NCBI GenBank assembly: GCA_903892365.1
Contig: CAITIF010000253.1
Span: forward strand, 1-11,764
DNA length: 11,764 bases
Reading direction: 5' to 3'
From: an uncultured Pirellula sp.
GTDB taxonomy: Bacteria > Planctomycetota > Planctomycetia > Pirellulales > Pirellulaceae
Shown here one piece after another: positions 3,053 to 11,191 of the stretch (position 1 is the stretch's first letter; each line of letters begins with the position of its first letter). The notes beneath the pieces were generated by a model. That model did no database searches. It had not been told where the DNA came from and worked only from the letters and a program-made list of their open reading frames with translations. A program made the position numbers and the translations under genes.

Positions 3053-5725
3053 TTATTGGGCCGGAAGCGACAGTCGAAAAAGCCCCCGGTTTTCGTTCCG
3101 AATAGGCAGATCACTTGCAGATACTTCGATCTGATAATCGCCGGCTTCTCTCCAACGAAGCTCGATCAACTTCCATTCGAATTCCTCGCCAATCAATTTC
3201 GCAGACGAGAAAATGTTCTCCACAATCCTGACTTCGAAACTGGGGGTCGTGACCGAGGGTGACCTATCGACTGGTTGAATGCTCAACGGAACCTGGACTT
3301 TCCCTTGGTTATGAATCTCAATGAGAAATCGATGCGTTCGGTCGGGAGATAAATGCCCCAGATCAATGCGAGGATGAACTTGGATCTGCGATTTTGCATC
3401 GATCGTTACGGCGCATAGCACCAACGGATCGACGGCTTTTCGAAGTTGATCGATATCCGTTGCGAGCAACAGCGACCGCATGCTCGCTAGATCATGCGAT
3501 TTGCTGGACGCAAAGGGGGCCAGCATCAGTAAATCATCCGCTTGCTCACTTACGGAAATCGATAGCTTCTTTGTTTGTTTGCGGGCTTTGGTTCGCCTGT
3601 CGATCAGTCGTTCGTAGCGGCGAATCGATTCGTCCGTATACTCAATCGCTTCCTGACGCTGGGCATCGTTTCCAAAGACCCCCTTCAATCGAATATCCCG
3701 AATGTGCAATCGCATGCGGTTGATCCACTCGCGGGCAGCATCTTCGCGAAACACCGGCTCATGGTCTACATGAACGTAGATTGCACTGGTATGCGCAATG
3801 TCCGGTTGCCAAATTGCATTCCACTGATCGCTTCGGGAGCATCTTGCAACCACCCAGCGACTTCGATCGGCTGGCAAACGAAGCTCGATAGTCGCCTCTT
3901 GTTCTTCGGTTGAGATTTCTTTCAGCACCTCCCCATTGGATATCAATTGCAAGCGGCCGATCGGAAACCGCGATAGAGCTTTCAGAGAAACTGTCAGAAG
4001 CTCATCTTTTTTTACCGAAACAACATCGCCCACTTGCTTCGAGTTGACAGTAAGAAACAGTAATGGTCCAGAAGTGGTAAAGGTTCGGCCGCGTCGGATT
4101 CCATCGATCCACTTCTCGTAACGAAAGTCTCCGTCAACCTTCACGTACGCTCGCGCACAACCAGCGATGCGAGCGGGGTGATCGCTACCATTGGTCAGCG
4201 GCAACTGAAACCCGCAATCCAACAAACGATAATAGTCGTCGGGCTCGATTTGATCGAGCGAGTCGGTTAATGCATGGATTGCATTCAGAGGAAGTTCGTG
4301 ATTGGCACCAATCCCATGAGCCTCAATGCTGATGGCCCCTTGTTCCCGGGCTTGAAGAATCGCGGGCTTGTTGATCGGATAATCCAAGGAGTCATCACCG
4401 GCGATCTGAGGCCCGGTGCCGATCGGTAAGACTAGCCATTTCAAGTTCAAAAAACACAAGTGGCCATAAAGGTTTTGGTTGCGATACTCTTCGGCCATCT
4501 CCAAATGGTAGTTTTCATCGCACAATCTTTGGATCGGTCCAACAGGAGCCTGGGAAGGTTTGATAAAAGCGTCGACATTCGTACGATGAAGCAGCGTAAG
4601 ATTGTTGGCGACACGCAAATCTTCGGCTCTCTGTACCCAAGCGAGGTCATCGATGGGCAAGTCCACGTTCCAAGCGTTGGTAACCCAATGAATGTGTGTA
4701 TCCCCGCTGATCCATCCCTCTTTCTTCATATCAACAAAACGACCAGAAGACAAACTCAGATCCCGAGTCTCGCCAGCTTTTAGGTCAACAGCTAGGTGCT
4801 CCAGCCGATGCTCAAAACCACGTTCGAGCGTCACCACGGTTGGCCCCGGCGGCAGATCCATCTCGAAGGAACCATCCGCATAGAAGAATGGAACTTGATA
4901 CGCTCGTGGGACCGTAAACAACAACAAAGGTTTTTCTGTGAAGGAGCGATTGGCTGCGAATGGACCGGAATGACGATATTGATGATCGCTGCCTTCCACC
5001 CAAACTCGTGCAGCCGTGGGTAAATTCAGGTCTTTGTCGCTCAATTGCACTCGGATTCGAGCCGGTTCGAGCTGTTGAACGGCCAATGGAAATCCATGAG
5101 TGACGGCACTGGATTTCAATTCAATCTTCGCATTGGGCTTATCCGCATTCAGGGTCAGCATAAAAAACTGCCCTTTCAATGGCAAGACGGTCCATGGCAC
5201 ACTGTTTTGCAGCTGATTGTCAACGAAAATGGACAGATTTACGGCAGCTGCATCTTCGTTTTCAACCTCTAAGAGAACACGTCGAGGTAAGCCAGCAGCC
5301 ACGCCGATGGGCGCAGGCGTATCCAAGGTCGATACCCCATGAACGCTCCACGAGCAACGGATCACCTGATGCAATTCACGGATCTTGGCATGCAACGAAG
5401 CACGTTGTCCCAATAGCTTTTCGAGTGGCAGAGCTTGAGGCACCTGAGTCGCGAAATGAAACTCCGCAAGCGCTTGATTGATAACGGCTGGCTGAATCGA
5501 GGTTGGACATTCCATGGCCAAAGACGTCAAGAATTCGAATTGAAAGTAGGCGAGCTGTCGGTCCAATTCCTCGACGGCCTGCCTGTTTGCAGCCAGTGTC
5601 GACGCGGTGGATACCTTCACTCCCTTCCGATGAAACTCAGGGGGATGAGCGTCAACCAGAGCCGTTTGGCCAACGGCTATCAACAAGAAGGCAATCGTTT
5701 GAAATCCAAGACTACATCGCGTCAT
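3053..5725 (-). CDS. Secreted CehA/McbA-family (PHP-like) metallohydrolase with C-terminal copy of the operon's shared module
   Basis: This 890-residue protein has a signal peptide (about 1-26, likely cleavage LVDA|HPP), so it should act in the periplasm or outside the cell. A β-sandwich-like region (about 215-330) precedes a PHP-type metallohydrolase core. The core shows GDTHIH (341-346), GHLCFLNL (421-428), IEAHG (467-471) and NGSDH (512-516), then the conserved TSGPL (551-555). These His/Asp/Glu residues are the expected metal ligands of the CehA/McbA family, which includes the carbaryl hydrolases CehA and McbA. Many members have unknown natural substrates. A helical charged stretch (about 660-720) leads to a C-terminal domain (about 768-890) that resembles the adjacent lipoprotein and the N-terminal part of the other metallohydrolase. 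The ATG overlaps the lipoprotein stop as ATGA, so translation is probably coupled. The family call is firm; the substrate is unknown. Confidence 0.88.
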   Translation of the reverse strand: MTRCSLGFQTIAFLLIAVGQTALVDAHPPEFHRKGVKVSTASTLAANRQAVEELDRQLAYFQFEFLTSLAMECPTSIQPAVINQALAEFHFATQVPQALPLEKLLGQRASLHAKIRELHQVIRCSWSVHGVSTLDTPAPIGVAAGLPRRVLLEVENEDAAAVNLSIFVDNQLQNSVPWTVLPLKGQFFMLTLNADKPNAKIELKSSAVTHGFPLAVQQLEPARIRVQLSDKDLNLPTAARVWVEGSDHQYRHSGPFAANRSFTEKPLLLFTVPRAYQVPFFYADGSFEMDLPPGPTVVTLERGFEHRLEHLAVDLKAGETRDLSLSSGRFVDMKKEGWISGDTHIHWVTNAWNVDLPIDDLAWVQRAEDLRVANNLTLLHRTNVDAFIKPSQAPVGPIQRLCDENYHLEMAEEYRNQNLYGHLCFLNLKWLVLPIGTGPQIAGDDSLDYPINKPAILQAREQGAISIEAHGIGANHELPLNAIHALTDSLDQIEPDDYYRLLDCGFQLPLTNGSDHPARIAGCARAYVKVDGDFRYEKWIDGIRRGRTFTTSGPLLFLTVNSKQVGDVVSVKKDELLTVSLKALSRFPIGRLQLISNGEVLKEISTEEQEATIELRLPADRSRWVVARCSRSDQWNAIWQPDIAHTSAIYVHVDHEPVFREDAAREWINRMRLHIRDIRLKGVFGNDAQRQEAIEYTDESIRRYERLIDRRTKARKQTKKLSISVSEQADDLLMLAPFASSKSHDLASMRSLLLATDIDQLRKAVDPLVLCAVTIDAKSQIQVHPRIDLGHLSPDRTHRFLIEIHNQGKVQVPLSIQPVDRSPSVTTPSFEVRIVENIFSSAKLIGEEFEWKLIELRWREAGDYQIEVSASDLPIRNENRGLFRLSLPAQ

Positions 5726-6306
5726 TTTTCCAGTACCTTGAATGTCACAAGCACATCGCTTCGAAATCCCAGGTCTTGTGTGCCCTGGCCTGCGTTAAAG
5801 TTCAGGATCGCGGTTCGGATTCCTAAATCGCGACTCTTGATTCGCAGCGTTCGGATTTCAGTGTACTCCCCTGAAAGCGGCCGATCAGGTTGCAGTTCGA
5901 TCTGGAGCCAACGATCTCGCGATGAATCTTGAGCTTCCGCAAGCAACTGCTCGGACTCAATGACCAACGGCGCTGTGATTCCAGCTGCATTCTCAATCTC
6001 GATCGAATAATCCTTCCATGTGCCTTGAACCAGCTCCATTGGGATCTCTTCGGCCGCCGCCTTGACTCTGGATTCCGGAGATATCGTGATCGTAATCAAA
6101 ATCGGCGGCCTTCCTGGCTCGGTAAGGTTGCTTGCGGCATTGCTGCTTCCTGAATTGTTGCCCAAGCTGCCCGATGAAGTATCCAATGAGACTGCGTTTG
6201 TAGATGATCCTGGTGGAGTACATCCGAGCACACTGCAAACCAAGAACGCCGCAAAGGACAACAATCGAACAACGGCTTGCGACGAACGCTTATTCTTTGG
6301 TTTCAT
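5722..6306 (-). CDS. Small lipoprotein made of a single shared β-rich module
   Basis: This predicted lipoprotein has 194 residues. A basic N-terminus (MKPKNKRSSQ) and a hydrophobic segment end in a good lipobox, SVLGC, with the lipidated Cys at residue 29. A Ser/Asn/Gly-rich linker (about 33-60) follows, then one domain (about 66-192). That domain matches parts of both neighbouring metallohydrolases: NAAGITAPLVI and AILNFNAG here correspond to NRAGLQSKLRV and ARLEFNAG in the upstream gene product. The frame stays open further upstream to 6609, but the start at 6306 is preferred. It has AAAGGA six bases upstream, gives the lipoprotein signal, and limits the overlap with the upstream gene to 17 nt. 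It overlaps the downstream gene by 4 nt. No named family is recognised. A role as a membrane-anchored partner or scaffold for the two enzymes is inference only. Confidence 0.82.
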   Translation of the reverse strand: MKPKNKRSSQAVVRLLSFAAFLVCSVLGCTPPGSSTNAVSLDTSSGSLGNNSGSSNAASNLTEPGRPPILITITISPESRVKAAAEEIPMELVQGTWKDYSIEIENAAGITAPLVIESEQLLAEAQDSSRDRWLQIELQPDRPLSGEYTEIRTLRIKSRDLGIRTAILNFNAGQGTQDLGFRSDVLVTFKVLEK

Positions 6307-8872
6307 TGAGAATCCTTTGGTAGGTCTTTCTCGCATGTTCATAATCCTTGCGAGCTTGAGCTTGTTCGTCGGGCGCATATGTTTTTTGTTTCTCGAGCCA
6401 ACATTGCTCCAGAGCGGCCAAACACCACTGTGCACTCGAGCGGATTTGGACGGGTTTGTCATCGATGCTGATCCAAATGGGATTGGTGTGAGCGGATGGG
6501 AAAATACGGGCAGCAACCCAACTGCTTCGGTCGACCTTGAGGCTTTCAAAACGAAGTTCGTTCTGCTTGCCATCTGCTTTGATCTTCTGGACTGCGACCG
6601 GATAGCCATTGACGATCAATTCGACATCCACCTCGGACCCGTCGGGCTTGAAGGATGCTGCCGTAAGTGAAAACGATCCATCCTGCTGTTTGGCAAAATC
6701 CATCAAGTGGCTTGTACCATCGCTTACGTAGCTTTCACCCCGCCGAAGCGCTTCGACCCAGCTATCGTAGTCCAAAACACCGTCTAGTTTGACGTAAACG
6801 CGTCCGATGCCCAGTCGTTCACCCGTCAGGCATGGGAAGTCGGTTTCACCGCTGGCCACGACGCGCGTTCCGCAATTGAGAACGTGGTACCAGATGTTCC
6901 ATTCCGATTCGCGAGGTGTGTTCATGGTCGCAATAAAGTCTAGGGCCGGTTGCTTCTTTCCATCCGGACCATCGACTTCGTGAGTCACCTGCATAATGAA
7001 CTCATTGGCTCCGATACCATCAAACGCCGGGATGTCAAAATTGGGTAACCGGTGGGGCCCATCTTCTCCTTCGATGCGACCTATGCTTCGTGTCAGTCCT
7101 GCTCCACTGTGCGCCGTTCCTGTTACAGCACCCTGCTGTTTAGCCCATCGAAGAGTATTCATGCCAAGTGTTGGCCAATGATGCTTCGAAGTCCCACCTG
7201 CAGGGATCTGCTGCCGTAGTTTGAGAAGGTTCAAGTGCCCTGATTGATGCGAACCAAATCCACTGACTTCGATATCGTACCGCAAAAGATAGGGATATCG
7301 GCTGACATCATCCGGCTTGCCACGGAAAAACTGCTTTTGAAAATCGAAGCATGGGCCCCACGTAAGGCAACAGCCAACTTTTACATCTTCGCCCATGATG
7401 TGTCGTAACATATCCTTTGGTAACACACCCTGCATCGGATTCTCGTAGTGCAAGCAACCAGCAGCATGAATATGATGATCGCCGCTCCAATAGCCATGCT
7501 GCGCCGTGTCGATCCATCGCTCCACTTGGTAGTTCAGCGTAACGGTTTGTTCGCCAACGTGCAGCGTTTGCATTTGAACAAGACTTTCAGGGCCATGCGA
7601 ACACTTGACGGAGTAGGTTCCTTGAGGCAATCGGATGCTCTCTCCCGTTTCGCGATAGATTTGAGTTTGAAAGAAAAAATCAGGAGCTTGTCGTTTGGAT
7701 TGATAAGGGTAAACCCGGCCCTGAGTATCGCGAATTTCAAATGCGGCCATGCAGGGTGAGCCATCTGCATCGGTCACCGCGAATCGCACCTCCGTGCTAG
7801 GAACCGTTCGTAGCTCGATTTCCGTACCGCTCCAAGAGCCACTTTCGCCGGCAGCGTATTCTAGATTGATCCAGTCGATACGGAATTTTCCTGGTCCTTG
7901 CAAGGGATCGATGCGAACACCTTTCAGCTCCCCTTCGACAGGGAATTCGATGGTATACTCGCGGTCACTACCCGGATCGAGCTGAAACACCATCTGGCGG
8001 CCACCATCGGGTTGCGGTATGGATTCCGTCCACCAAAAGACTTGCCCGACACCGGGTCCGTCTGGGCGTCCCCAAAATCGCAGGACCATTCGGCCACCTC
8101 GAGCTGACACAGGAGCCGAGAAAAAAGGATCGTCTCCGACAGCCTCCAAGTTCAGTGACTGATCGCGAACATTCATCTTGAGATCGTTCAGTTCGCCCCA
8201 TCCGTCGGAATCTTGATCGAATCGCCATTGCCGAATGACAGACGAGTTTGCAGAACCGGTCACTCCTGCATTGAACTCCAGTCGAGCCTTTCGATTTCCG
8301 ACTGTGGTAGAAGATATCTGGACGATACGGTACTCCAGTTCCAAGCCACTTAGGTTGGCATGGAGCGGCCTGCCATCGTACATGGACAGTGCCATCCAGC
8401 GATTTTCAATGTCATCTTGGGGCCCGTGAGGGATGGGTCGCGCGTTGGGGCTGTCCACGCGAAGCTTGGACTGAAGACCCGCTCGATTGACGACTTTCAC
8501 TAACATCGCTCGCCAACCATTTTCAGCCACTTCCATGGGGGCGGCAGGGCTGACGGTTACTTCGCCGTCGGTTTGAATTTCCACAGCGGCAATGCACATC
8601 GGATCGAGCATACGTTGCACGCTCGCTGTAATTTCCGAATCGTTGGTCTCGCTCTTTAGGGCTGCAAGCATTGTCATTTGTTCCGCCGTGAAGGGCGATC
8701 CTAGGGACTGCATGGCTTCGGCAAGCCGACCCGTGATCAACAGCAACGGCTGAGCATCCACGCGATCGACAACCGGCAACTCGCCACCTTGAGCTTGCAA
8801 AGGGGCTGCACCCGGAATCGCGGCAATGCCAAAAACAAGCAACAAAACGAACGCATTCAAGACCTTGGTCAT
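6290..8872 (-). CDS. Secreted CehA/McbA-family (PHP-like) metallohydrolase, multidomain
   Basis: This 860-residue protein has a clear signal peptide (hydrophobic 5-20, likely cleavage LQA|QGG near 28). Visible regions in order are a helical segment (about 38-90) and the module shared with the next two genes (about 92-216). A jelly-roll-like segment follows (about 213-340, starting RQWRFDQDSDGW, as in carbohydrate-binding-like domains of secreted enzymes), then a transthyretin-like β-sandwich (about 350-455). The metallohydrolase core carries YWSGDHHIH (461-469), SGHLNLL (544-550), GTAHSG (585-590) and GETDFP (675-680), ending in a charged helical tail. The His/Asp residues are expected metal ligands, although the usual GSDxH motif is replaced by GETDF. 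The frame is open to 9037, but the start at 8872 has GAAGGAAG seven bases upstream and begins the signal peptide. It is the first gene of the operon, divergent from the GntR regulator. The jelly-roll suggests a polymeric or glycan-associated substrate, which is speculative. Confidence 0.88.
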   Translation of the reverse strand: MTKVLNAFVLLLVFGIAAIPGAAPLQAQGGELPVVDRVDAQPLLLITGRLAEAMQSLGSPFTAEQMTMLAALKSETNDSEITASVQRMLDPMCIAAVEIQTDGEVTVSPAAPMEVAENGWRAMLVKVVNRAGLQSKLRVDSPNARPIPHGPQDDIENRWMALSMYDGRPLHANLSGLELEYRIVQISSTTVGNRKARLEFNAGVTGSANSSVIRQWRFDQDSDGWGELNDLKMNVRDQSLNLEAVGDDPFFSAPVSARGGRMVLRFWGRPDGPGVGQVFWWTESIPQPDGGRQMVFQLDPGSDREYTIEFPVEGELKGVRIDPLQGPGKFRIDWINLEYAAGESGSWSGTEIELRTVPSTEVRFAVTDADGSPCMAAFEIRDTQGRVYPYQSKRQAPDFFFQTQIYRETGESIRLPQGTYSVKCSHGPESLVQMQTLHVGEQTVTLNYQVERWIDTAQHGYWSGDHHIHAAGCLHYENPMQGVLPKDMLRHIMGEDVKVGCCLTWGPCFDFQKQFFRGKPDDVSRYPYLLRYDIEVSGFGSHQSGHLNLLKLRQQIPAGGTSKHHWPTLGMNTLRWAKQQGAVTGTAHSGAGLTRSIGRIEGEDGPHRLPNFDIPAFDGIGANEFIMQVTHEVDGPDGKKQPALDFIATMNTPRESEWNIWYHVLNCGTRVVASGETDFPCLTGERLGIGRVYVKLDGVLDYDSWVEALRRGESYVSDGTSHLMDFAKQQDGSFSLTAASFKPDGSEVDVELIVNGYPVAVQKIKADGKQNELRFESLKVDRSSWVAARIFPSAHTNPIWISIDDKPVQIRSSAQWCLAALEQCWLEKQKTYAPDEQAQARKDYEHARKTYQRILNETKE
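6313..6318 (-). promoter_or_regulatory. Ribosome binding site of the lipoprotein gene
   Basis: AAAGGA lies six bases before the ATG at 6306. It sits inside the last codons of the upstream metallohydrolase gene. It decides the lipoprotein start over the longer upstream-open frame and allows translational coupling. Confidence 0.7.
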
Positions 8873-9011: not shown

Positions 9012-9725
9012 ATGCAAACAGCAAAAGTGGTTGGCAAAGGCCGGCCGTTGTTGGTGGACCAAGTGATGGGTTTGTTGTCCGATTACATACAAAGGGAAAG
9101 GCTCCGTCCTGGAGATCGGTTGCCGAGCGAAGCGGACTTGGCGGAGCGAATGCAATGCAGCCGTAACGTTCTGCGTGAGGCCGTGGGGCGCATGACATCG
9201 TTAGGCTTGGTGGACGTTCGGCGGGGCAGTGGCATGTTTGTTGGAACGACAGACTCCGTTCGTTCTTGTGCGTTGTTGCTGCGATCTTCGTTAGCGATTT
9301 CCGTGAACGACTTGGTGGAGTTTACGGAGTTTCGGCGTGCTCTGGAGGGTTACGCCGCCCGCCAAGCTACCTCGAAAGCAACGGATGGTGAGCTTTCGGA
9401 ACTCGACGCGATGGCAACGGCGATCGACGATCCGGACATAACGCGAGAAGAGAGTTTGAAGCGTGACTCCGCATTTCACTTAAGACTTATGGAGATCGGC
9501 GGGAATCGTTTGATGGCAACTATTCTGGAATCGCTGCTCGACTTCATGCAAGCGTCGATGGATTCGACTACGGCTACACCTCGCGATATCGATACCAGTC
9601 GTCAGCTACATGCGGCGATTATGGATGGCTTATTAAAACGCGATCCGATTGCGGCCGAAAATGCCATGGAATTCAATCGCCAGCATACGATCAACAGCTT
9701 AAGTCGTCCTGCGAAATCCCAGTAA
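9012..9725 (+). CDS. GntR-family transcriptional regulator, FadR subfamily (FCD domain)
   Basis: This 237-residue dimeric DNA-binding regulator responds to a small ligand. The N-terminal winged helix-turn-helix (about 12-78) has the classic GntR string: RPGDRLPSEADLAE (32-45), then SRNVLREAVGRM (50-61), and the wing GLVDVRRGSGMFV (65-77). The C-terminal all-helical FCD effector domain (about 100-230) keeps the four residues that usually bind metal: D152 and H156 (DSAFH), H200 and H225. It is therefore probably a metal-containing sensor, typically of carboxylic or sugar acids in this family. It is transcribed away from the metallohydrolase operon across a 139-bp spacer with a strong palindrome, so local repression of both is likely. 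The SGNH hydrolase gene follows 52 nt downstream on the same strand. The family assignment is very secure; the ligand is unknown. Confidence 0.95.
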   Translation: MQTAKVVGKGRPLLVDQVMGLLSDYIQRERLRPGDRLPSEADLAERMQCSRNVLREAVGRMTSLGLVDVRRGSGMFVGTTDSVRSCALLLRSSLAISVNDLVEFTEFRRALEGYAARQATSKATDGELSELDAMATAIDDPDITREESLKRDSAFHLRLMEIGGNRLMATILESLLDFMQASMDSTTATPRDIDTSRQLHAAIMDGLLKRDPIAAENAMEFNRQHTINSLSRPAKSQ

Positions 9726-9777
9726 ATTTTTAGTCTATGTCCCACCACCTCTCACCACCCATCGACAGGCAACTTTC

Positions 9778-11085
9778 ATGACGATTCGACGCCGTGAATT
9801 TCTAGCATCCATTTCGGCTGCGGTTGCAGCATCGGCTGCCTTGGCTCGCCAGGGGAACACCCATGAGGCTTTACGATCTTTTTTGCAACCGCATGTGCTG
9901 CAGCGAAGTTCGCTAGACCAGTTCCTGGATCCCAAGGCTCAGGTGTGGGCCCGGTTTGATCCTGAGCTTGGATACTTGCTCCGGAATGCATTCGTTCGCG
10001 ATGGCGTCGATGGGTGCCACACGTTAGCTCGTTATCAGGAGACTGGCCAACGTCAGCAAGTCAATTTCCAGGATCAGCCCTGTCGAATACACACTTATGG
10101 CGACAGCTTTACCCAAGGGCATCAGGTCAGCGATGGCGAAACGTGGCAGGAGATATTGGCGGCACACTTTTGCGAACCGATAAAAAACTTTGGTGTTGGT
10201 GGCTTCGGTGTTTACCAAGCCTATCGCCGGCTGCTTCGGAGCGAAGCAACCGAACAATCGGCCAAGTACATCCTCTTCAATATCTGGGGGGATGATCACC
10301 TTCGGAGCGTTTATGCATGGCGATGGTTGGCCTTCCCTGACAATGCCCTTGCGTCGATGTCAGGAACTATGTTCCATGCCAATCCATGGGTCCATGCCCG
10401 TCTAGACGACCAAGGCGAATTACTGGATCGCGATAGCTTATGCCCGACAGAGGCCTCCCTTTATCAGTTGTGCGATCTCGATTTTCTGGTCGAAACATTC
10501 CGAGACGACGAGATTGCACACCTGTTGTTCGCTCAACGTACAGGTTCGATTCTCGATATCGAGACACTTGAAAAAGTAGCCGCCAAGTGCCAACGAAATA
10601 TGCCTGACTTTTTCACGGCCAATGCAATTAAGGCCAGTGCAACGCAATTGCTCCATGCTTATGCAGTGCGCGTTGGTATGCTGATCATGGATCGTTTGCA
10701 GGCGCACTGTAAGCAGAACAATCAGGAGCTGATGGTCTTGCTGAGCTATCCAGTTGGGTCTGTTTGGCATGCCTGTAATCGAAGTCCCGCGGACGATCCA
10801 GACAACACGGATTGGCATCCGCAGGTTTTTAAGGATCATTTGAAGGAACGAGGAATTCCGCTGGTAGACAGTCTGCCGGCTCACGTTGCCGAATACGACA
10901 CATTTAAACTCAGCGCCAAGCAGTATGTCGATCGTTACTACATTGGGCACTACAATCCGCAAGGAAATCATTTCTTTGCGTACGCCAACAAGGAATCGAT
11001 CCGTAACTGGCTGAACCCACCACCGCCCGCATACAGAAACGATCAAGAGCCATTGATTCGGTTCAAAGGCTATCTTCCGGGGTGA
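9778..11085 (+). CDS. Tat-exported SGNH/GDSL-like hydrolase
   Basis: This 435-residue protein begins MTIRRREFLAS and continues with an Ala-rich hydrophobic stretch to about residue 24, a typical twin-arginine signal, so it should be exported folded. SGNH hydrolases are serine esterases or acetyl-esterases. Block I is clear: HTYGDSFTQG (105-114, nucleophile Ser110). Block II is NFGVGGFGVYQ (137-147) and block III is probably FNIWGDDH (167-174), with Asp where Asn is usual. Block V is GHYNPQGNH (390-398), with catalytic His391, but the Asp normally three residues earlier is Tyr388; Asp385 is nearby. The protein is longer than simple SGNH enzymes, with an insertion between blocks III and V. It starts 52 nt after the GntR stop, with only a weak AGG upstream, and is followed by a terminator at 11113. 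It is likely cotranscribed with the regulator. The fold call is good; activity and substrate are uncertain. Confidence 0.85.
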   Translation: MTIRRREFLASISAAVAASAALARQGNTHEALRSFLQPHVLQRSSLDQFLDPKAQVWARFDPELGYLLRNAFVRDGVDGCHTLARYQETGQRQQVNFQDQPCRIHTYGDSFTQGHQVSDGETWQEILAAHFCEPIKNFGVGGFGVYQAYRRLLRSEATEQSAKYILFNIWGDDHLRSVYAWRWLAFPDNALASMSGTMFHANPWVHARLDDQGELLDRDSLCPTEASLYQLCDLDFLVETFRDDEIAHLLFAQRTGSILDIETLEKVAAKCQRNMPDFFTANAIKASATQLLHAYAVRVGMLIMDRLQAHCKQNNQELMVLLSYPVGSVWHACNRSPADDPDNTDWHPQVFKDHLKERGIPLVDSLPAHVAEYDTFKLSAKQYVDRYYIGHYNPQGNHFFAYANKESIRNWLNPPPPAYRNDQEPLIRFKGYLPG

Positions 11086-11112
11086 GCAGCATTAAGATTT
11101 CAGTGAGCGTTT

Positions 11113-11148
11113 GTCTCTCGAACCAGCCCATTTTCGACAGACTTTTTT
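11113..11148 (+). terminator. Rho-independent terminator after the SGNH hydrolase gene
   Basis: GTCTCTCGAA (11113-11122) pairs with TTCGACAGAC (11133-11142), with one C-C mismatch and a 10-nt loop. Six T follow directly (11143-11148). It starts 28 bases after the stop at 11085, the right place to end the GntR-SGNH transcript. Confidence 0.65.
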
Positions 11149-11161
11149 AGGAAGAAGAAAA

Positions 11162-11191
11162 GCGACGTTCGGGCTCGCCCCAGAATGTCGC
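11162..11191 (-). terminator. Strong hairpin, terminator-like on the minus strand
   Basis: GCGACGTTC (11162-11170) pairs with GAATGTCGC (11183-11191), with one G-U pair when read as plus-strand RNA. An inner GGG/CCC pairing closes a CTCG tetraloop, with a CA bulge. On the minus strand the hairpin is followed by TTTTCTTCTTC, a pyrimidine tract suited to termination; on the plus strand no T-run follows. No minus-strand gene is seen immediately to its right within the window, so its use is unclear. It may shield the cluster from antisense transcription. Confidence 0.45.

Follow-up and report, generated by a model that had tools for sequence, protein, structure and literature searches.

Why does a single planctomycete operon carry the same domain three times, in three different protein contexts? 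The window analysed here, an 11,764-nucleotide stretch from an uncultured Pirellula species that represents the entire contig CAITIF010000253.1 of a metagenome-type genome (971 contigs), encodes on its minus strand, in this order, the CehA/McbA-type PHP metallohydrolase E1 (8872..6290; 860 amino acids, with an N-terminal signal-like sequence), a putative lipoprotein (6306..5722; 194 amino acids), a second CehA/McbA-type PHP metallohydrolase, E2 (5725..3053; 890 amino acids), and a TolC-like outer-membrane protein. The lipoprotein gene starts inside the end of E1 and its stop codon shares an ATGA overlap with the start of E2; because the gene ends and starts overlap in this way, the three genes are most likely co-transcribed. 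E1, the lipoprotein and E2 each contain one copy of a module, and our comparative analysis suggests an answer that treats the copies as unequal: we estimate a probability of about one half that the lipoprotein is a detached subunit of E1 bearing a hairpin loop that the enzyme itself lacks, and that the copy in E2 is decaying.

The first-pass annotation had recognised the common module by eye, and all the peptides that it quoted are present in the three proteins (at residues 90, 125, 177 and 193 of E1, 67, 102, 148 and 163 of the lipoprotein, and 766, 802 and 850 of E2). In BLASTP comparisons of single sequences, E1 and the lipoprotein were the sole significant pair (31% identity, E values of 4e-11 to 2e-10); the match between the lipoprotein and E2 was not significant (E values of 0.06-0.24), and E1 and E2 gave no match covering the module. 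Family profile-profile comparison was significant for every pair, with 110-119 matched columns: the E1 copy (residues 90-216; 8225..8605, minus strand) was aligned by hhalign to the free copy in the lipoprotein (5725..6108, minus strand) at 2e-18 and to the E2 copy (residues 766-890; 3056..3430, minus strand) at 5e-20, and the latter two were aligned to each other at 3e-24 to 3e-26. The module pairs scored 108-150 and the controls stayed flat, at 11-12 for reversed profiles and 9.8-18 for parts of E1 and E2 outside the module. The three segments are thus homologous, and the two PHP enzymes are also paralogues of each other (E value of 6e-31 for the catalytic profiles). The annotation had also known no named family for the module, and this view was borne out by the scans run: the three window segments had no significant Pfam match, NCBIfam showed nothing across the module in the whole of E1, the lipoprotein and E2, and neither database gave a family for 57 lipoprotein relatives. 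A structural model of the lipoprotein copy predicts a nine-strand beta-sandwich, with values of the predicted local distance difference test (pLDDT) of 89-98 for the ten-residue blocks from residue 81 onwards and of 62 for one block, the loop. A PDB sequence search with E1, E2, two family alignments and a domain inserted in E1 yielded nothing useful, and a Foldseek search with the whole 747-residue model of an enzyme returned only poor whole-length superpositions.

The loop, the hairpin GQGTQDLGFR (5761..5790, minus strand), is the stretch of the lipoprotein copy with the highest conservation and is absent from both the E1 and the E2 copy of the window. Eight of its ten positions are invariant among 57 aligned members of the lipoprotein family, and the other two are conserved to at least 90%. 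For all counts the loop was defined by the pattern G.GT.[DNE].GF[RK], which has a single match in the window. Among the matches listed, it is present in 118 of 120 lipoprotein relatives and 83 of 120 E2 relatives, and in none of the 120 nearest relatives of E1. In the 2.4 million residues of open frames from the first 142 loci of our survey, the loop occurs nowhere outside the module.

This survey comprised 203 loci: the window; 27 named loci found with the lipoprotein family as the query (L004-L030, biased towards the loop); 114 loci of the window's order, the Pirellulales, found with the lipoprotein family and with the region of E1 after the module; 40 loci of a phylum sample, found with the catalytic region of a single-gene relative; and 21 loci of a class sample, found with the E1 region. 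The counts hold some near-duplicates (L012 is the same contig as L185, and L011 and L018 come from one genome). One loop was found in 168 loci, none in 35 and two in not a single one (one and none, respectively: 125 and 17 of the first 142 loci, 33 and 7 of the 40, and 10 and 11 of the 21). In 126 loci (82 + 11 + 33) an enzyme has its own exact loop in its N-terminal module, and a second loop-bearing module accompanies it in 0 of the 126. A strict rule of exactly one loop was given up when L076, and then L155, L157, L186, L190, L193, L200 and L201, were seen to break it; since these eight loci of the loop-less lineage have no loop, the rule is stated as never two, usually one. Outside this lineage, there is no partner either for E1-type enzymes with a degenerate loop or none (L083, L126, L127, L130, L161, L171) or in loci with near-variant loops (L101, L120, L136, L138, L159, L172); all of these were treated as zero-loop loci and not as members of the lineage.

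A tree of the catalytic domain, computed with the module columns excluded, separates its loop-less E1 enzymes from the others by one branch (45 of 57 rows, branch value 99). This tree left out L083, L101, L120 and L123, ten near-duplicates, enzymes below 400 bits and most loop-bearing enzymes, of which 12 were kept; another tree placed L083, L101, L120, L123 and L159 among the loop-bearing enzymes. The partners of the lineage were counted in loci retrieved by queries without the module. L001-L003 were set aside as pieces of the window's own genome, as were loci whose E1 is truncated or disrupted ahead of the module (L014, L018, L021, L074, L123, L124, L142, L160) and those without an E1 (L015, L030, L043, L044, L045). 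Of the 35 resolvable loop-less loci, counting the window, the fetched stretch contains a loop-bearing module in 27, with the exact loop in 25 and with a variant in two (GKQTQDLGFR, GKMTQDLGFR); L203 was retained, as its partner is seen, despite the cut 3' end of its E1, and without it the count is 26 of 34. A partner is present in 15 of 16 loci in the window's order, where L076 is the only resolvable exception of the lineage, and in 12 of 19 elsewhere. The partner is either a free module, a lipoprotein-type protein encoded downstream, the C-terminal tail of an E2 that lies upstream, or a third protein, in its N-terminal part. All 27 partners in the first 142 loci lie on the strand of E1 and directly adjoin or overlap its frame (the list of partner positions has 28 rows, from which the broken single enzyme of L021 was excluded). 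A loop-bearing module thus usually lies near a loop-less enzyme, and the comparative data point to a pairing between E1 and a single module that bears the loop, either within the same chain or in trans.

The E2 copy has fared differently. The closest relatives of E2 (P0121-P0127, of which P0127 is cut short) all lack the loop among the matches listed. Between the window and L006, L009 and L010 the E2 modules are 53% identical and the PHP domains 87-89%, whereas three loop-bearing E2 pairs with 86-91% identity in the PHP domain share 73-84% in the module. A search of 246 genomes of the window's order with residues 1-600 of E2 (E value of 1e-70; the E2-like places G211:C362 and G151:C237 left out) found matches in 11, ten of which have the loop-less type of E1; in the remaining one (G147, L044), the E1 next to E2 is truncated ahead of the hairpin. 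In L004, which has the nearest relative of E1 on the trees, E2 is disrupted: remnants of its N-terminal part and of a loop-less module persist in different frames (10600-11182), the catalytic part is gone, and E1 and the lipoprotein are intact. We therefore regard E1 and the lipoprotein as the stable pair. E2 is also absent from the fetched stretches of L005, L008, L011, L012, L016 and L031, all with an E1 and a lipoprotein-type partner, and a whole-genome search for E2, made for L031 (G121) only, gave no match. L198 encodes an E2 without a module and, separately in the same locus, a free module; elsewhere these parts are joined, which suggests that the tail of E2 was gained by fusion.

These observations can be combined in a model in which the module would be an enzyme-associated beta-sandwich within one family of secreted PHP metallohydrolases, and the hairpin loop GQGTQDLGFR its functional element, serving substrate binding or catalysis. 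In most relatives examined, the N-terminal module of a single enzyme has the loop in cis. The hairpin of E1 has lost the loop in its lineage, frequently with a domain inserted at this place, and a detached loop-bearing module would supply the loop in trans. In the window, this trans subunit would be the lipid-anchored lipoprotein from the overlapping gene, which would bind E1, affect its activity and, through its lipid anchor, also hold it at the membrane. The C-terminal copy of E2 would derive from another line of loop-bearing modules, and it has lost its loop now that the lipoprotein has one. A bolder and more tentative extension, which we consider somewhat less probable than not, would see the ten-residue hairpin as an exchangeable working part that left the N-terminal domain of an enzyme for a stand-alone subunit, the tail of a sister enzyme and a lipid-anchored protein and is not kept twice in a locus, with E1 and the lipoprotein as a naturally split enzyme.

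Several observations weigh against the proposal that the lipoprotein is the loop-bearing subunit of E1. No loop-bearing module is present in the stretch of the eight loci named above, and if eight further loci, kept outside the 35 as cut, masked or split (L072, L074, L075, L189, L191, L192, L199 and L003; L075 has a partner-like gene on another contig of its genome, L043, and L192 a masked run in E2), are counted as lacking a partner, the figure becomes 27 of 43. For L076, L155 and L157, whole-genome searches found no free partner, and the loop only inside single-gene enzymes elsewhere. Since L076, L200 and L201 are the sister group of the remaining loop-less enzymes, the loop may have been lost before there was any partner. 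A group of four rows (L191, L192, L193, L199) has no partner seen, L191, L192 and L199 being cut or masked, and the E2 adjoining L199 ends without a module; L155, L157 and L186, which group with five enzymes that have E2-type partners, look like later losses of the partner. In the class sample, only seven of 12 partners are on the same strand and five on the opposite one, and the partner of L198, on the opposite strand, lies about 3 kb away. The E2 modules of L006, L009 and L010 are 85-98% identical to each other at 95-98% in the PHP domain, so their divergence is mild, and we assign the divergence of the E2 module to the separation from the window. Modelled alone, the lipoprotein has a poorly ordered loop (pLDDT 62), and in cis, in the model of a single-gene enzyme, the loop is only slightly better ordered (71); these models do not display docking, and ordering in cis was dropped as evidence for it. 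Finally, the number of independent events is small.

An alternative that we regard as unlikely is that the module is a ligand-binding domain, for example for glycans, with the loop as the binding site and one such site per locus; E1 would have taken up the inserted domain in exchange for its own, and the copy that is free or lipid-anchored would act independently. It is possible that the modules have a shared ligand. The inserted domain of E1 comprises about 135-145 residues in the last hairpin of the E1 module (7787..8224, minus strand), at the site of the loop of loop-bearing relatives. The anchor-to-anchor span of this hairpin is 225 residues in E1 versus 90 in the three loop-bearing relatives measured; in loop-less enzymes it is 86-111 residues without and 224-232 residues with the insert. 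The inserted domain has no significant Pfam or PDB sequence match, and a glycan-binding role for it is only a guess. The pattern of partners argues against the exchange: loop-less E1 enzymes without the insert are likewise accompanied by a loop-bearing module (L011, L016, L042, L195, L202, L205) or by a variant one (L204), and the insert is therefore not the replacement that matters. The idea that the inserted domain, by replacing the loop, is the sole cause of the arrangement was rejected on the same grounds. Moreover, the module matches no ligand-binding family in Pfam or NCBIfam.

The first-pass annotation had proposed that the module mediates the assembly or anchoring of a complex or binds a shared ligand. 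In the first case, the copies would bind one another and both enzymes would be tethered to the membrane by the lipoprotein. Three homologous modules in a single operon of overlapping genes speak for this, as do the existence of relatives in which E1-type and E2-type enzymes are fused and the lipobox of the window copy. The lipoprotein consists of a signal peptide followed, by sequence pattern, by the motif SVLGC, which we take to be a lipobox with predicted lipid processing of its cysteine (codon at 6222-6220, minus strand), a low-complexity linker and the module; its start, MKPKNK, is common to close relatives. Yet a lipobox-like motif precedes the module in only 51 of the 120 lipoprotein relatives listed and in none of the free modules of L011, L012, L013, L031, L039 and L041-L043, so that an anchoring role is doubtful and was rejected as the main one. 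A glue common to all three proteins is equally hard to reconcile with an E2 copy that is loop-less and diverged, and with the persistence of E1 and the lipoprotein where E2 is broken or not in the locus. We thus consider this proposal improbable; of the annotation's interpretation, the shared module and its lack of a named family stand, and the anchoring and the common glue do not stand up well. In the lipoprotein-type module of L016 (9896-10555), an in-frame run of GSGSLREP-like repeats precedes the RW motif.

Least probable of all is a passive pattern in which duplications scattered the module, a single loss of the loop in the E1 lineage had unrelated causes and adjacency is no more than a trace of common descent: the loop-less E1 enzymes of the tree are indeed on one side of a branch and eight of the 35 loop-less loci have no partner, but detached copies keep the loop and fall into two module groups at different positions (in a FastTree tree of few columns with long-branch warnings), and in the clade of the window the second copy, that of E2, has dropped the loop while the lipoprotein retains it.

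The assignment of both enzymes rests on the family model NF038032 (CehA/McbA), for which E1 scores 228.3 and E2 137.3 bits at a curated cut-off of 80; their hydrolase activity is predicted. The PHP catalytic domain of E1 comprises residues 461-800 (6473..7492, minus strand). In E1, H467, H469, E495, H546, H588 and D678, and in E2, H344, H346, E368, H422, H470, D515 and H516 are each at least 97% conserved, and we assume that these residues are the PHP-type metal ligands. E1-type and E2-type enzymes are fused into one chain of about 1200-1900 residues in L013, L037, L038, L155, L186 and L189 and in P0256 and similar proteins, with a loop-less module between the two catalytic domains.

Around the operon, the TolC-like protein (2-2989) follows directly after E2; its Pfam OEP score of 18.6 bits is under the cut-off, and a close relative likewise follows the E2 remnant in L004. 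Divergently upstream, at 9012-11085, lie genes for a GntR/FCD regulator and an SGNH/GDSL-like hydrolase, the latter just under the Pfam cut-off; since this pair is upstream of E1 in L003, L006, L007 and L010, it may share the regulon of E1. The same genome contains a second E1 gene, cut by the end of its contig (L003, G000:C607, 1-2773), which is 90% identical across the overlap and has the same divergent GntR and SGNH genes; it is either part of a paralogous operon or strain contamination (genome contamination of 4.97%). Two clusters of neighbouring genes, with DUF1501 and DUF1549/DUF1553-cytochrome in the representatives scanned, are found no more than five frames from E1, in 27 and 25, respectively, of 129 loci.

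This analysis points to a partner and a ten-residue site that can be tested in a large, uncharacterised hydrolase family, found in this survey in Planctomycetota and in genomes with the labels Verrucomicrobiota and Acidobacteriota. Its members form a series in which a single-chain enzyme appears to turn into a two-component one; if this is true, E1 expressed alone would give a misleading picture of its activity. In the titles and abstract openings covered by our literature search, no publication on the module was found. The enzymes belong to a known family, for which, as far as this search goes, a loop-bearing module placed either in cis or in trans is not known to have been described. CehA and McbA are carbaryl hydrolases; publications on the breakdown of carbaryl and carbamates were among the titles that the literature search returned. 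E1 and E2 resemble this family of PHP fold in passing its cut-off, in the HxH motif and in the other conserved histidine, aspartate and glutamate positions; the model of a single-gene relative matches the solved PHP-like protein 3e38. NF038032 describes the catalytic region only and covers neither the module nor the inserted domain nor the detached subunit. For the module, ASH/PapD-like and related Ig-like beta-sandwiches (HYDIN, CEP192, macroglobulin domains) are candidate folds for comparison. Naturally split enzymes and pairs related by domain fusion or fission ("Rosetta stone" pairs) are established concepts. As in such pairs, what one lineage has in cis is elsewhere encoded by a gene of its own or fused to another partner; unlike in them, E1 retains a loop-less module of its own, and only a ten-residue element appears to relocate.
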